From Ferrovibrio sp. MS7 (GTDB taxonomy: Bacteria > Pseudomonadota > Alphaproteobacteria > Ferrovibrionales > Ferrovibrionaceae), in the NCBI RefSeq assembly GCF_038404985.1, contig NZ_JBBKBA010000002.1, forward strand, positions 1 through 64,000: DNA of 64,000 bases, read 5' to 3'. This document shows positions 8,293-59,341 of this stretch, in pieces. The position numbers and the translations under genes are program-made. How positions within the stretch are numbered: the first letter of the stretch is position 1; every line of letters begins with the position of its first letter. Below the pieces are notes generated by a model. The model ran no database searches. It saw only the letters and a program-made list of their open reading frames with translations, and had not been told where the DNA came from.

Positions 8293-8362
8293 GTCATTCC
8301 CGCGAAAGCGGGAAACCCATTTTTGCTGTCTGTAATGGGACCCTCGCGTTCGCGAGGGGGAC
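8293..8362. repeat. Inverted pair of extragenic palindromes (REPIN-like)
   Basis: Two copies of one palindromic unit face each other. The plus copy, 8293-8324, begins GTCATTCCCGCGAAAGCGGG and ends in CCCATTTT. The minus copy, 8334-8362, reads GTCCCCCTCGCGAACGCGAG on its own strand and ends GGGTCCCATT. Each unit forms a GC-rich hairpin of its own. The same unit recurs at 30923-30953, 30983-31013, 31309-31338 and 47493-47522. Confidence 0.85.
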
Positions 8363-8379
8363 GGAACTCAGCTAGTACC

Positions 8380-8407
8380 GTCATGGTCCGCGTTCGCGGA
8401 CCATGAC
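8380..8407. repeat. Perfect 13-bp stem palindrome
   Basis: GTCATGGTCCGCG at 8380-8392 and its exact complement at 8395-8407 are separated by two bases. It sits directly after the palindrome pair at 8293-8362 and before the ilvE terminator, in the convergent gap between the PAS gene and ilvE. It starts and ends like the other extragenic palindromes (GTCAT...ATGAC), so it is probably a second repeat family rather than a dedicated terminator. Confidence 0.7.
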
Positions 8408-8423
8408 GTGGTAGGAAATGCAA

Positions 8424-30953: not shown

Positions 30954-30982
30954 TCAAAAATTCTTCGTTGCTTTCTATTTTC

Positions 30983-31013
30983 GTCACCCTCGCGGAAGCG
31001 AGGGTCCCATTTC
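30983..31013 (+). repeat. Extragenic palindrome, family A, left border of the GIY-YIG unit
   Basis: The sequence GTCACCCTCGCGGAAGCGAG followed by GGTCCCATTT abuts, and by two bases overlaps, the stop codon of the GIY-YIG gene. With its inverted partner at 31309-31338 it brackets that gene precisely. Confidence 0.88.
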
Positions 31014-31302
31014 AGCGCAACAGATCGTCATAGAGATCACGCCATTCCGGATTGGCTGATTGAATCAGGTCGATCTTCCAGGCCCGGCGCCATTGTTTGA
31101 GCCGCTTCTCGCGCTCGATGGCCAAACCGATGTCTTCGTGAGCCTCCACGAATACCAGCCGCTTCAGACCATAGCGCCTGGTGAAACCCTCGATCGAGCC
31201 TTCGCGGTGCTCATGGGCACGGCGCGCCATATCACTGGTCACGCCAATATACAGCGTGCCATACGGCTTATCGGTAACGATGTAGACCCAGCCTGTCGTC
31301 AT
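31012..31302 (-). CDS. Small GIY-YIG nuclease-domain protein
   Basis: A 96-residue single GIY-YIG domain. VYI (residues 6-8) and YIG (18-20) bracket the catalytic strand pair, and the helix with R26 (MARRAHEHREG) and the Glu of the EREKRLKQWRRAWK region complete the expected active-site set. The terminal NPEWRDLYDDLL is typical of the short UPF0213/YhbQ-like branch. These stand-alone proteins are common in proteobacteria and their role is uncertain. This copy is bracketed by an inverted pair of palindromic repeats (30983-31013, 31309-31338) that stop within 7 bp of the gene at both ends, which suggests a mobilised gene-repeat unit. Confidence 0.88.
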   Translation of the reverse strand: MTTGWVYIVTDKPYGTLYIGVTSDMARRAHEHREGSIEGFTRRYGLKRLVFVEAHEDIGLAIEREKRLKQWRRAWKIDLIQSANPEWRDLYDDLLR

Positions 31303-31308
31303 TGGAAT

Positions 31309-31338
31309 AAATGGGATCCTCGCTTCCGCGAGGATGAC
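31309..31338 (-). repeat. Extragenic palindrome, family A, right border of the GIY-YIG unit
   Basis: On the minus strand it reads GTCATCCTCGCGGAAGCGAG then GATCCCATTT, matching 30983-31013 except at two compensating positions (C/T and G/A), so the stem is kept. Confidence 0.88.
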
Positions 31339-31387
31339 TAAAAAAGAAGAAAAGCAGTGTTACAGCCTAACCCCGCCCCACAATCTT

Positions 31388-42457: not shown

Positions 42458-42832
42458 GACGCACCTCCAGATGCAACATCCCGGAGGGATACTTCCCTCA
42501 GGGTCTGACCTTAAGGCTCGGCCTCAAGGTCTGGCAGTGCGGTGGCGGCTCCCCCAGCCGCGCCCCGCGAGCGCTGCCGGTGCAGGAGATATGACTCCCG
42601 ATCACGGCAAAATCGTGGTGCAGGCGTGACTTGTTCGTGAGCGGGGCACCTCTCGCTGCCAGGCTGGCCGCCGACTTGTGATGGCCGTGTTTCGCCAATT
42701 AATACTACTCCTGATTATTTTGAATTAATTCGGTGCCCTTAGTCCTAAAACAACTATTGCGAGAAATAAACGGGCGTAAGACACTTCTATTTTTGGTAAC
42801 TTGTTCCTGGGAATAGATCGGCGGGGGCTAGG
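42458..42832. other. 375-bp gap with a compositional step upstream of the RloC-like gene
   Basis: The first 240 bp are GC-rich, with short inverted repeats and no credible gene (a 66-codon minus frame has no family features). From about 42700 the DNA becomes AT-rich, with several TAAT/ATTA runs, up to the start codon at 42833. This marks the left edge of a probably acquired segment. It presumably includes the promoter of the RloC-like gene; no clear -35/-10 pair could be chosen. Confidence 0.6.
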
Positions 42833-45094
42833 ATGCTTACGGCAATCAACAAGATTAAGGGCCTCGGGGTCTTTGGAGATTTTGCTGCAGCGGTGGATCT
42901 GCCCCCCTTCAAACGCTTCAACCTGATTTACGGTGAGAACGGCTCAGGCAAGACAACGTTGTCCAGGCTTTTTACTGCGCTTCAGACCGGCGCGCATGCA
43001 GACTACCCCGACCTCGACTATTCGATAACGACTGACGCAGGCACGCTGGCCAAGGGGCAGCCGAGCCCACGGAAAATCCGTGTTTTCAATTCGGACTATA
43101 TCGAAGCGAACATAGGTCAGTTCAACGGACCGCTGAAGCATATCCTCATTGTTGGCCAGGAAAACAAAGAGCTCGCTGAAGAAATAAAGGCTGAACAGGC
43201 CGCGCACGACGACCGGAAAGCCAAGCTCGACGTCGAGACGGTGGCGCTGACAAAGCTTGAGACCGACAAGGGAAAGGCATTTTCGGCCATTGCTAAGACG
43301 ATCGGCGAGGCGACGAGTGGGACAACTCTGCGTGGCTATCGCAAACCGGACGCAGAAGCCGCCTATAAAAAGCTGACGACGCCAAAGACATATTCGGAGG
43401 CCGAACTCGACATTCACCGAGTAACTATCCGTCAGGAACAGGCGGAAGCTGTGCCGCAGATTTCTCAGCCAAAGGTGAAGGCCAAGTCAGGCGCCGGAAT
43501 AGACATTCAGATTGCGCTGAGCACGCTGGTCACGGCTACAGGAATTCTGACTCAGCGTGCGTCTCAGGTCGATGCGCTAAGCCGACTTGTCGAGAAGCCG
43601 GATATATCACTCTGGGTCGAGACCGGTTTGGAAATCCACCGCACGCATGAGTCGAAGGATTGCGAATTCTGCGGGCAGAAACTGCCGGAAGAACGGCTGA
43701 AAAGGCTTTCTGAGCATTTCAGCACTGCGGACCAGCAACTGAAGACTGAAATCGAAGCAGAGATTAAAACGGCACATGATATCAACGCAGCTATCTCCAG
43801 CGTCCAGATACCACCGAAGGCGGGCCTTTTTTCCGAGATCCGGGAGGATTTTGAAGCTACAGCCCAGGAATTCGAGACCGCAAGGACCAGTGCACTGACT
43901 GCAGTAAGCAAAGTGGCGGAGATTCTATCGAAAAAGCTGACCGAACGCTCGAAGCCGTATGCTATCGAAATCGCCGTGGATACTACGGCTTTATTCCAGT
44001 CTCTGGATAAGGTCAGAGCGCTAATTGACAGGCACAATGCCAAATCGGCTGATTTCGAGGCGCAGAAAAAAGCAGCTAGGCACGCCATTGAAACGCATTA
44101 TCTGTCGTCCATCGCGCCGCAGGTGAGAGAGTTCGACGAAAAAATAGACGCCACGCAGAACACTATCAAAAAGCTGAGGGACGGCGCCGCCGATTTAGGA
44201 GACGCTCGCAGTCTTGATGAGCTGCTGAAATCCATTAGCGAAAAAAAGGCGAAGGTATCAAGCGCGCACGCTGGTGGAGCTCAAATGACCAGCAAGCTCA
44301 ATGCTTTTCTTGGCCGTACAGACCTGACATTTGATTCGGGCGATGACGGATATCGACTAAAGCGCCGGGGGAAACCTGCGCGGCGGTTAAGCGAAGGCGA
44401 GAAGACTGCCATCGCCTTTCTTTACTTCATTGTGCAACTTGGTGACCAGGACTTCGATATCAAGGAAGGCATCGTAGTCATTGACGACCCAATATCCAGT
44501 CTAGACGCAGCAGCAATATTCCAAGCATTTTCTTACTTGAAAAATGCGGTCAAGGAAGCCAAGCAGGTTTTCCTGTTCACCCACAACTTCGATTTCTTGA
44601 AGCTATTGCTAAATTGGCTTGACCACGGAGCCAAACAGAATCAACGCTCTTATCTTATGATTGTCTGCACAGAAGCGGCAGCCGGAAGAAGCTCACATCT
44701 CATGAAGCTTGACCAACTTCTTGTTGAGCATCCGACCGAGTATCATTACCTCTTCAAACTTCTATACACGTTTGAGTCGGACGGCACGATTCAATCGTCC
44801 TACAACATTCCAAATATTGCCAGGAAACTGCTGGAGACGTTTCTCGAATTTCATGTCCCATCCAATGAGAATCTGTACAAGAAACTCGATAAACTAAAAT
44901 TTGACGACAACAAAAAAACCGCCATCTACAAGTTCACGAATGACCTATCACACATGACGGGCAAAGGCTTCGACCCAGCCCTCGTCGCCGAGACGCAGAA
45001 GAACACGACTTATCTTCTTGAGATGATAAAAGCGGTTGCACCCGACCATTATGATGGTCTCGAGCGTTTAGCTAAGGGTGCATCAGCACTGTAG
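42833..45094 (+). CDS. RloC-like anticodon nuclease (AAA_13 ATPase with zinc hook)
   Basis: A 753-residue ABC/SMC-type ATPase of the AAA_13 family. Walker A is GENGSGKT (34-41), the signature LSEGEK is at 519-524 and Walker B is VVIDDP (548-553), with the H-loop FLFTHNF after it. Between the two ATPase halves lie long coiled coils carrying a zinc-hook-like CEFC (277-280). The C-terminal part has R664-x3-E668 and H707, the Arg-Glu-His triad arrangement of PrrC/RloC tRNA anticodon nucleases. RloC cleaves tRNA at the wobble base in response to DNA damage or phage. GC content and codon use are visibly lower than in the neighbours, and no restriction-modification genes are adjacent. Other AAA_13 ATPases are the main alternative. 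Confidence 0.72.
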   Translation: MLTAINKIKGLGVFGDFAAAVDLPPFKRFNLIYGENGSGKTTLSRLFTALQTGAHADYPDLDYSITTDAGTLAKGQPSPRKIRVFNSDYIEANIGQFNGPLKHILIVGQENKELAEEIKAEQAAHDDRKAKLDVETVALTKLETDKGKAFSAIAKTIGEATSGTTLRGYRKPDAEAAYKKLTTPKTYSEAELDIHRVTIRQEQAEAVPQISQPKVKAKSGAGIDIQIALSTLVTATGILTQRASQVDALSRLVEKPDISLWVETGLEIHRTHESKDCEFCGQKLPEERLKRLSEHFSTADQQLKTEIEAEIKTAHDINAAISSVQIPPKAGLFSEIREDFEATAQEFETARTSALTAVSKVAEILSKKLTERSKPYAIEIAVDTTALFQSLDKVRALIDRHNAKSADFEAQKKAARHAIETHYLSSIAPQVREFDEKIDATQNTIKKLRDGAADLGDARSLDELLKSISEKKAKVSSAHAGGAQMTSKLNAFLGRTDLTFDSGDDGYRLKRRGKPARRLSEGEKTAIAFLYFIVQLGDQDFDIKEGIVVIDDPISSLDAAAIFQAFSYLKNAVKEAKQVFLFTHNFDFLKLLLNWLDHGAKQNQRSYLMIVCTEAAAGRSSHLMKLDQLLVEHPTEYHYLFKLLYTFESDGTIQSSYNIPNIARKLLETFLEFHVPSNENLYKKLDKLKFDDNKKTAIYKFTNDLSHMTGKGFDPALVAETQKNTTYLLEMIKAVAPDHYDGLERLAKGASAL

Positions 45095-45259
45095 GCTCTT
45101 GCTGCTCACTGATAGCCACGGCTTCCTGAGTTCCACTGGGAAGCAGCAATTGCACCTTCGAAACTTCTGGTGTCGGCGTGTCCGGACTCCGTGGCGAACC
45201 ACCCTGGTGACGCCCAAGGCGTTACCACCCAAATGTGACCGCTGTCATCAAAATTTAGC

Positions 45260-47492: not shown

Positions 47493-47522
47493 GTCATTCC
47501 CGCGCCAGCAGGAATCCCATTT
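47493..47522 (+). repeat. Extragenic palindrome, family A (single copy)
   Basis: GTCATTCCCGCGCCAGCAGG then AATCCCATTT. It is a solo, slightly decayed copy between nrdB and parD. Confidence 0.75.
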
Positions 47523-57815: not shown

Positions 57816-58802
57816 ATGCTTACCCGTCGCCATTTCGTCCAGGCGGGCGCCGCCACGGCCGCGCTCACCGCCCTGCCCGGCCTCTCGCGCGCTCAAACCT
57901 GGAATCCGACCCAGACCGTCACCATGGTGGTGCCTTATCCGGCTGGCGGCCCGACCGACGCGCTCGCCCGCCTGGTGGGCCAGGAAATCGCCAAGGATCT
58001 CGGTCAGCAGGTGATCGTTGAGAATGTGCCCGGTGGTGCCGGCGCCATCGGCTCGGTGAAAGTGGCGCGCGGCCCGGCGGATGGCCATATGCTGCTCACT
58101 TCCACCAACCAGACCCATGCCACCAACATCTCGCTGCTGCCCAATGGCGGCGGCTATGATCCGGTGAAGGATTTCGCGCCCATCGCGCTGCTGGCCGACC
58201 TGCAGCATATCCTGGTGGTGAAGAACGACCTGCCGGTGAAAAACTTCGCCGAGTTCCTGGCCCTGGCCAAGGCGCAGCCCGGCAAGCTGAATTGCGGCTC
58301 CACCGGCCCGGGCTCGGCGTCGCATCTGGCGCTCGAATTGTTCAAGGTGAAAGCGGGTGTCGACCTCACCCATGTTGCCTACAAGGGTTCGGCGCCGTTG
58401 CTGCAGGACCTGCTCGGCGGCCATGTCGATTGCAGCTTCGCCACCACGCCCACGGTGCTCGGCCAGGTGCAGACGGCTAAGCTGCGCGCCATCGCCGTGG
58501 CCTCGCCGAACCGCTCGCCGCATCTGCCCGAACTGCCGACCATCGCCCAGGGTGGCGTGGCCGGCGTGGAAGCCGATGCCTGGCTCGCCATCTTCGCCCC
58601 GGCCGCGACGCCGGCCGCGGCGCTGGCACGCTATCGCGGCCTGGTGCTGGAAGCGATGAAGAAGGACAGCGTGCGCGAAACCTTCACCAAGCAGGGCATG
58701 ACGGTGAATGTGCGCGATGCCGACAACTTCGCCAAATTCCAGCAGGAAGACATCAAACGCTGGGCCGAGGTGATCCGCGTGGCGAATGTGAAGGCGGAGT
58801 AG
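57816..58802 (+). CDS. Bug/TctC-family periplasmic substrate-binding protein (Tat-exported)
   Basis: A 328-residue solute-binding protein of the tripartite tricarboxylate transporter (TTT) type. The N-terminus has the twin-arginine RRHF motif, a hydrophobic h-region and an AQT cleavage site. VVPYPAGGPTDALARLVGQEIAK and VENVPGGAGAIGSVKVARGPADGHMLL are the Bug signatures, and GGHVDCSFATTP closes the ligand site. Only the binding protein is present: no TctA/TctB membrane genes are in the window, as is common for orphan Bug genes. The ligand is unknown (typically a carboxylate). The start is the ATG at 57816 after ACGGAGGAAAC. Confidence 0.9.
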   Translation: MLTRRHFVQAGAATAALTALPGLSRAQTWNPTQTVTMVVPYPAGGPTDALARLVGQEIAKDLGQQVIVENVPGGAGAIGSVKVARGPADGHMLLTSTNQTHATNISLLPNGGGYDPVKDFAPIALLADLQHILVVKNDLPVKNFAEFLALAKAQPGKLNCGSTGPGSASHLALELFKVKAGVDLTHVAYKGSAPLLQDLLGGHVDCSFATTPTVLGQVQTAKLRAIAVASPNRSPHLPELPTIAQGGVAGVEADAWLAIFAPAATPAAALARYRGLVLEAMKKDSVRETFTKQGMTVNVRDADNFAKFQQEDIKRWAEVIRVANVKAE

Positions 58803-59341
58803 GCATCGGAGGATCGTCATGTCCCGCGCATGACACCTCTCTTTGCATCGTCATGCCCAGGCTTGGCAAGGGCATCCCTCGCCAGGACACATACCGAGGC
58901 CGAGCGGCCGAGCAATTCAGGATCAAGCCGGCAGGCGATCTCGGCGATCTGCGCTGCCGATGCGGCGCGGTAGCGCTTGCACGGCTGCAGCTCGCCGGGA
59001 AAAGCCGGATTGGCCGCCAGGTCATCGCCCTGGCTGGCCACCAGGCTGCCGAGTTCCACCGGCTCCTAGCGCGCCGACGCGGCGCCCTGAAGGCGTGATT
59101 GCGACTTCGGGGAAAGGCGCTATACTGGCAACCGTCGATGGCGCCCGCCCCTCTTGGGGAGCAGGTATCCCAGGGCGGGGCTGATCCGCCGCTTGAAACC
59201 GTGGTTGTGACGCGGGCCCGTCGACCCACTGCCCACTCACCGTACCAAGCCGGGTCCGTGGTCGCGTAAACCGACACAAGGCGGTCGCGGCCATTGAGAT
59301 GCCCGCATCAAGTGCGGGCATGACGAGGTATTTGGAATACC
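58803..59341. other. 539-bp convergent gap: palindromes, a gene remnant and a candidate RNA
   Basis: It contains a small inverted pair GTCATG/CATGAC (58817-58835), a palindrome with GTCATGCCCAGGCTTGGCAA at 58851-58877, and a family-B hairpin at 59299-59321 (ATGCCCGCA and TGCGGGCAT around TCAAG). A minus-strand open stretch, 58817-59059, ending in these repeats, reads like the C-terminal piece of a lost gene (EPVELGSLVASQGDDLAANP and PAFPGELQPC), directly preceded by an in-frame TAG. The candidate RNA at 59133-59297 is listed separately. Confidence 0.6.
59099..59297 (+). ncRNA. Candidate structured RNA (6S-like) with its own promoter
   Basis: A promoter TTGCGA (59099-59104)-16 bp-TATACT (59121-59126) precedes a GC-rich stretch with no open frame. 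Its ends pair: CGATGGC (59136-59142) with GCCATTG (59290-59296) and CCGCC (59145-59149) with GGCGG (59280-59284). An inner stem, GATCCG-GCTTG (59183-59195) with CAAGC-CGGGTC (59246-59256), carries a terminal hairpin. A large internal loop separates the two. This closing stem, bubble and terminal stem plan at about 160 bases is that of 6S RNA. The usual 6S gene neighbours (zapA, ygfA) are missing, so this is a hypothesis. Confidence 0.35.

Follow-up and report, generated by a model that had tools for sequence, protein, structure and literature searches.

Small GIY-YIG nuclease genes are paired with subfamily-specific palindromic repeats and are candidates for the enzymes that spread CGTC REPs

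The REPIN-RAYT system (REPtron) and the CGTC REP superfamily are the described systems closest to the one analyzed here. In REPIN-RAYT, short palindromes stand in inverted pairs and in high copy, and the enzyme gene is flanked by the same palindromes, the repeat type being matched to the enzyme (excerpts of PMC3116915 and PMC8266576). The RAYT copies within a genome are mostly distinct and not amplified while the short repeats are many, according to the excerpted text of PMC3116915. The CGTC REPs are a described superfamily, mostly of alphaproteobacteria and including the Neisseria dRS3 and the rickettsial RPE-4/6 elements, with a CGTC or TGTC tag, a stem of 8-9 bp, a loop of 4-5 nt, a CCA-type tail and an arrangement in inverted pairs; they lie mainly between genes and "apparently lack a dedicated transposase" (excerpts of PMC3733652). 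That defining paper detected no transposase gene associated with them, has no occurrence of "GIY-YIG" and leaves the mobiliser of these repeats open. GIY-YIG is also a domain of homing endonucleases of the I-TevI type, for which selfish spread by cutting is conceivable, and the catalytic role of its conserved positions is covered in part by the excerpts of PMC1564403. The small GIY-YIG proteins resembling UPF0213 are represented by two solved structures, BH0048 and EF2693, whose entries are both titled hypothetical proteins. Among open-licence PubMed Central papers, preprints excluded, we found none joining GIY-YIG with REP terms, and among open-licence PubMed Central papers none joining two or more of UPF0213, YhbQ and GIY-YIG; the excerpts of PMC10928387 and PMC4046053 hold both "GIY-YIG" and "palindromic" but make no nuclease-REP link.

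We analyzed a stretch of 64,000 nucleotides of Ferrovibrio sp. MS7 DNA (hereafter the window), in which a GIY-YIG nuclease gene lies between two such repeats (Table 1). A sequence-only reading had placed the gene inside an inverted repeat pair with two compensating differences, and this was confirmed with coordinates within 1-2 bases. The flanking REPs, at 30983-31012 (+) and 31309-31338 (-), are 30-nt copies that lie within longer inverted arms (40 nt each, 90% complementarity, 296 nt apart). Only two positions distinguish the copies. These are partners in the stem (C-G versus T-A), and because of this pairing each copy keeps a perfect hairpin. The repeats had also been put within 7 bp of the gene, one of them on the stop codon; indeed the 3' REP shares one base with the stop codon and the other starts 6 bp from the start codon. 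The window copies have a stem of 8, a loop of 4 and the tail CCCATTT, the right copy carrying AGTC in place of CGTC. With this tag, 8-bp stem, 4-nt loop and CCA-type tail, the window repeats are CGTC-tagged REPs. The sequence-only reading had suggested a possibly undescribed mobiliser-repeat pair; the repeats turned out to be known ones, while for the pairing of nuclease and palindrome we found no earlier description in the open-licence PubMed Central literature. The gene-less pair that it had reported is present as well, except that we count about 10 bp between the halves instead of 9, depending on where the ends are set.

Table 1. Nuclease gene, repeats and variable segment in the window
Feature	Position	Strand	Basis or remark
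96-aa free-standing GIY-YIG nuclease gene, subfamily A	31012-31302	-	ORF and PF01541 profile
CGTC REP at the gene's 3' end, tag outward, tail toward the gene	~30982-31012	+	
Inverted partner REP upstream of the start codon, tag AGTC	~31309-31339	-	
Resident REP left of the variable segment; a version also in the second same-species genome	30924-30953	-	
Resident REP-like element, its loop enlarged, on the right side of the segment; shared with the second same-species genome	31388-31465	+	
Gene-less REP pair (REPIN-like), left half	8293-8322	+	identical in the second same-species genome
Gene-less REP pair (REPIN-like), right half	8333-8362	-	identical in the second same-species genome
Lone REP of the same family	47493-47522	+	
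Segment with both flanking REPs and the gene, missing from the second same-species genome	30969-31383	.	ends uncertain by some bases

The family is present in high copy: in the genome of the window, a pattern with a 9-bp stem has 78 exact matches and one with an 8-bp stem has 62, and the reversed pattern gave no match there. The inverted arrangement of CGTC REPs was seen in 50 of 58 pairs at nuclease genes and, farther than 500 bp from the gene, in 14 of 15 pairs of neighbours. Two further palindromic stretches of the window can be mentioned. The resident REP-like element on the right, whose enlarged loop can itself form a hairpin, is dispersed: over 20 partial matches to it occur in the window's genome, and further ones in the second same-species genome. 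Just after the gene-less pair, positions 8379-8408 form a perfect 14-bp inverted repeat with CGTC at both ends, resembling a fused palindrome of Sphingobium strain TYG64 described below. A second nuclease gene of the same genome (contig 3, 133117-133395, 68% identity) also lies between CGTC hairpins, of a sequence unlike that at the window locus, and the occurrence of a second copy with another CGTC repeat made a systematic test worthwhile.

The window protein matches the GIY-YIG profile PF01541 over residues 4-77 with 54.1 bits (cut-off 22.6), and the NCBIfam search at 0.001 returned no family. In an alignment of 27 sequences Y18, R28 and H32 are invariant and Y7 and E65 nearly so (at least 90%), so that the protein has both the profile and the Y, Y, R and E positions of the GIY-YIG superfamily; we take these positions to be the catalytic residues. 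The structure is predicted confidently (pLDDT 91.4), and among solved folds the closest is UPF0213 BH0048 (E 8e-4), followed by Slx1 (E 0.017). Slx1 is a nuclease of branched DNA, and a REP cruciform or hairpin would be a branched substrate, which may link the repeats to the Slx1-like fold. The dN/dS values were 0.01-0.19 in 20 of 23 close pairs, which are not independent of each other (three pairs without a finite dS were dropped), and they are rough because dS was above 1 in most pairs; the nuclease looks to be under purifying selection. At least 588 relatives were found, and many genes of this kind are annotated only as "GIY-YIG nuclease family protein". The weaker search matches make up a sister subfamily, B, close to the UPF0213 proteins, and the profiles of the two subfamilies separate them: A genes score 118-161 bits on the A profile and 30-66 on the B profile, with two fragments falling outside these ranges (79/36 and 38/0 bits). 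By its best profile match the window nuclease does not belong to the UPF0213-like subfamily, with whose members it shares fold and size.

We compared the flanks of relatives, up to 10 kb long, at the best 80 of the at least 588 loci, which were chosen by similarity to one query and not by flank. By record title these come from Pseudomonadota, Planctomycetes, Omnitrophota, Nitrospira, Patescibacteria-type lineages and others, where single phylum labels may be wrong because many of the loci are from metagenome-assembled genomes. Hairpins were scanned as GTCA followed by a near-perfect stem (stem at least 7, loop 3-7). Within 100 bp, such strict hairpins were found on both sides of 27 genes, on one side of 25 and on neither side of 28. 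Their density was highest within 40 bp of the gene, at 10.4 per kb (66 hairpins, counted from 20 bp inside to 40 bp outside the gene and divided by the 40 bp outside; about 7 per kb if the overlap is included in the length). It fell to 2.3 per kb between 40 and 100 bp, 1.5 between 100 and 200 bp, 0.3 between 200 and 500 bp and 0.04-0.07 farther out. After leaving out two loci too near a contig end, a hairpin lay within 60 bp on some side of 50 of the 78 nuclease genes and on both sides of 22, versus 21 and none of 777 control ORFs from the same loci, these being open frames of at least 80 aa chosen by length and not by a gene finder. Among the control ORFs of 80-160 aa, none of 173 had REPs on both sides. 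The sequence-only reading had named gene flanks without repeats elsewhere as evidence against its proposal; repeats are in fact present beside many of the relatives.

The association was also seen in a test free of any motif. An inverted-repeat score of at least 14 between the 120-bp flanks was reached at 51 of 78 relatives in the 80-locus set and in none of 474 shifted windows, at 58 of 108 subfamily A loci from whole-genome searches versus 2 of 622, and at 10 of 18 subfamily B loci versus 0 of 114. Strict hairpins were missing from 48 of the 108 subfamily A loci, and 18 of the 30 inspected among these still scored at least 14. In total, strict hairpins stood on each side of the gene at 58 of 186 subfamily A loci, with the tags outward in 41, inward in 9 and on the same strand in 8. 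The two hairpins at a locus had a mean identity of 0.92, versus 0.61 for hairpins of different loci (no value as high in 10,000 permutations), and similarity of the nucleases correlates with similarity of the repeats (Mantel r 0.55, 0 of 2,000), a correlation to which the relatedness of the genomes may contribute. At the 80 loci, the median gap was 18 bp between the end of the left hairpin and the start codon (29 loci) and 7 bp between the stop and the beginning of the right hairpin (27 loci).

We looked for element ends beyond the REPs. G was depleted just outside the CGTC tag at A-type loci (5-15% at several positions within 12 nt), but as an element end this G-poor tract was rejected: it was weaker at the 80 loci and no different in REPs remote from any nuclease, so we treat it as a property of the repeats. 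Identity outside the REPs was 0.31 versus 0.27 between loci (44 loci), and almost none was seen past the base next to GTC.

Subfamily B genes, first taken as a negative control, had a CGTC hairpin within 100 bp in 0 of 20 cases. They too are flanked by palindromes in the same class of bacteria, but by a different one, of the form CTCATCC-TGAG...CGAA-GGATGAG. When both hairpins were counted at both kinds of genes (3 A and 1 B loci were dropped), A hairpins stood at 60 of 108 A-type loci, 29 of them with both sides occupied, and B hairpins at 0 of 108; B-type genes had B hairpins at 15 of 19 loci (7 on both sides), the B motif having been defined on those same loci, and A hairpins at 0 of 19. 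At the seven B loci outside the motif-defining set, strict B hairpins were found in 5 and A hairpins in none. The specificity was also seen across 240 genomes, where B repeats went with the B nuclease (11 of 24 carriers versus 7 of 216 others, p 2e-8; a carrier being a genome with a match above 100 bits), while the crossed pairs showed no association (A nuclease with B repeat, p=0.60; B nuclease with A repeat, p=0.25). This two-way specificity of nuclease and repeat is our strongest argument against a passenger gene or an intergenic bias, and the pairing of small GIY-YIG nucleases with subfamily-specific palindromes is well supported. Several subfamily B reading frames run into the palindrome at their 3' end, for example ending in ...PHPSTGSG (L148-L167, L237-L251).

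The number of repeats tracks the presence of the nuclease, as the sequence-only reading had proposed to check. Within one class, 68 of 240 genomes have the subfamily A nuclease. Weak hits alone (subfamily B or, in G050, a fragment with stops) were seen in 14 of the 82 genomes with hits, and these 14 were counted as A-negative. At least 5 repeats were counted in 32 of the 68 carriers versus 8 of the 172 non-carriers (Fisher p 7e-14), and the carriers hold 1,128 of the 1,273 counted repeats. The association held in three strata of genome size (at least 3 repeats; p 0.002, 2e-6 and 2e-4), and in families with both states the carriers had more repeats per Mb in 13, fewer in 2 and a tie in 8 (p 0.007). 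The counts are lower bounds, with the two patterns catching only part of the CGTC superfamily; one genome (G101), for example, scored 0 and yet has 54 REPs of another GTCA form. By these patterns 36 of the 68 carriers have fewer than 5 repeats. Eight genomes were exceptions with at least 5 repeats and no detected gene: G012 (31), G250 (24), G061 (15), G120 (14), G215 (10), G097 (7), G225 (7) and G067 (6). Such repeat-rich genomes without the gene are expected if the repeats outlive the enzyme, or if the enzyme is not the cause, and the genome-wide correlation does not prove the direction of cause.

Next to the counts stand comparisons of filled and empty sites. G254, the incomplete second genome of the window's species, aligns to window positions 1-27380 at 98%. 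It is without the gene and both its REPs as one block, and the left REP and the right REP-like element remain there 15 bp apart. A 12-bp direct repeat is found at the window locus, which could have deleted the block in this genome, instead of an insertion having added it to the other. Two more distant congeners have other genes and no strict REP at the nuclease site; by reading, these are different small toxin-antitoxin-like genes between azlD and a thioesterase gene (L260 in G003, L261 in G007), and this site seems to be a variable intergenic spot in the genus. Window positions 42689-45233 and 58802-59341 also had no collinear match in the second genome. In Azospirillum lipoferum the nuclease gene lies between sufB and sufC, bordered by one REP pair at either end; of these four hairpins, three are strict. 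Four other Azospirillum records have sufB and sufC without the nuclease gene, and the strict scan found no REP in their empty sufB-sufC stretches. The REP-gene-REP region beside fnrL is covered completely by seven Sphingobium plasmids, three of which were inspected, and not by four relatives. Among these four, TYG64 retains a single fused palindrome that joins the outer half of each REP, and TYG74 has what by eye is an imperfect form of this palindrome. The strict scan found no REP in TYG72 or TYG65. In the filled strain TYG73 the nuclease gene is frameshifted. From these three cases of presence or absence as a block between close genomes we conclude that the gene and its repeats come and go together, a point that the sequence-only reading had proposed to check. 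We saw no clear target-site duplication by eye at the filled and empty sites, and the Rhizobium flanks gave no usable empty site.

Copies of the nuclease within one genome are mostly diverged, the best pair being below 0.75 identity in all but two (G004, G101) of 25 genomes with fetched copies, so the nuclease gene itself is rarely amplified, much as with RAYTs. In one of the two (G101) there are two copies at different places, 99% alike in amino acids, whose shared part ends in REP-rich DNA on both sides. Several candidates for a carrier or mobiliser were tried and rejected. Small mobile plasmids were one of them: 35 of 72,556 plasmid records match, 31 of them above 300 kb and 34 typed as non-mobilizable, and a search of plasmids with the block at the DNA level found only part of the gene, in two relatives. 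Phage origin was rejected since tblastn of the window protein gave no match in 50,697 phage records at 1e-5. A RAYT as the mobiliser was rejected as well: searching with PF01797 (Y1/RAYT) only, we found a match in 4 of 23 REP-carrying genomes and none in 19, the window's own genome being among the latter.

We think it probable, without great assurance, that these loci form a REP-partner system whose enzyme is a GIY-YIG nuclease and not a RAYT, and that this nuclease spreads, or once spread, the repeats by cutting their hairpins. As in REPIN-RAYT, the enzyme gene is flanked by its matched repeat, though not at every nuclease locus. The enzyme is a 96-aa GIY-YIG nuclease and not an HUH/Y1 transposase (PF01797), and the tag in most copies is CGTC or TGTC and not GTAG; because enzyme family and tag both differ, we do not regard the nuclease system as a member of REPIN-RAYT. 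To the CGTC REPs, described with no transposase gene of their own, we propose to add a partner gene, that of the GIY-YIG nuclease, which is the best candidate yet for an enzyme that spreads them. The nuclease would recognize its own type of REP, as hairpin or cruciform, and cut at or near the CGTC tag, and repair of the cut would copy REP-bounded DNA to new places. The products would mostly be gene-less REP pairs, non-autonomous and in high copy, and rarely the REP-gene-REP block, and internal deletion of the block would leave REP pairs or fused palindromes such as those in Sphingobium. To our knowledge, GIY-YIG enzymes are hydrolytic nucleases and not strand-transferring transposases, which counts against such a mobiliser role. 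The sequence-only reading had left a choice between the nuclease as passenger of REPIN-type repeats and as the enzyme that spreads them; the flanks and repeat numbers support their association, and a part for the enzyme in moving the repeats is what we infer from this association and from the site comparisons.

A different part for the enzyme, in which it acts by homing, is unlikely. The nuclease would cut REP spacers lacking the gene and repair would copy gene and REPs in, the REPs being only landing sites that spread otherwise. It is consistent with this that the window's block is bordered by two REPs that the empty same-species genome has as well, and that the domain also occurs in homing endonucleases (excerpts of PMC1564403). 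But the empty sites of the four Azospirillum records and of Sphingobium TYG72 and TYG65 hold no strict REP, and homing leaves unexplained that the number of REPs tracks the nuclease and that the copies match within a locus. The protein also differs from endonucleases of the I-TevI type in standing between hairpins rather than in an intron and in having neither NUMOD nor any other separate DNA-targeting domain, for which 96 aa leave no room. Distinctly unlikely, too, is a structure-specific resident nuclease that serves its host by trimming or resolving REP cruciforms and has the flanking REPs as its own regulatory or insulating sites: the signs of purifying selection, Slx1 as a structural neighbour and the lack of any tblastn match among the 50,697 phage records at 1e-5 would fit, but not the patchy presence (68 of 240 genomes), the site differences between close strains or the frameshifted copy in TYG73, and a purely regulatory role needs no inverted matching repeats on both sides.

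That the gene is a passenger, one cargo of another transposase acting in trans on any DNA between two REPs, appears highly improbable. Mobilisation by a broad spectrum of transposases is offered as one possibility by Di Nocera et al. (excerpts of PMC3733652), but 19 of the 23 REP-carrying genomes, the window's included, have no Y1/RAYT match by PF01797, each nuclease subfamily goes with its own repeat, which is unlike a passenger, and no other cargo was seen among the 777 control ORFs, none of which had REPs on both sides. A mere coincidence, by which small intergenic genes come to lie beside REPs that prefer intergenic DNA, has in our judgement a negligible chance: CGTC REPs are mainly intergenic in the excerpts of that paper, but none of the 173 control ORFs of 80-160 aa had them on both sides, the copies match within a locus at a close spacing (medians of 18 and 7 bp), and the repeats are specific to the subfamily. 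Chance and intergenic bias were rejected on these flank controls (0/777; shifted windows 0/474 and 2/622) and on the A/B specificity.

The proposed partnership of nuclease and REP concerns a named, very small and testable enzyme family, so the question of the CGTC REP mobiliser becomes directly answerable. If the proposal is true, the arrangement of REP plus enzyme arose more than once with unrelated enzymes, and a role is given to many genes now called only "GIY-YIG nuclease family protein". On a wider claim we are evenly divided: that GIY-YIG nucleases of the free-standing kind form a second class of REP mobilisers across Bacteria, independent of RAYTs and unrelated to them, with at least two subfamilies each driving its own palindrome superfamily (A the CGTC REPs, B the TGAG...CGAA palindromes). 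If both subfamilies are mobilisers, many "orphan" palindromic repeats of proteobacterial genomes, Neisseria dRS3 included, would be accounted for.

Some single loci lie at the margins of the sample. In Neisseria gonorrhoeae (NZ_CP119142.1, filed as a plasmid; L034), a subfamily A nuclease stands among CGTC repeats of the dRS3 type, with no feature listed in the record. At one Planktothrix locus (L036) and one Spirosoma locus (L037) the strict hairpin scan found none, and imperfect palindromes that start with GTCA and have other stems were seen near the nuclease genes. Because such imperfect GTCA palindromes adjoin nuclease genes there, the pairing of nuclease and repeat may extend to Cyanobacteria and Bacteroidota.
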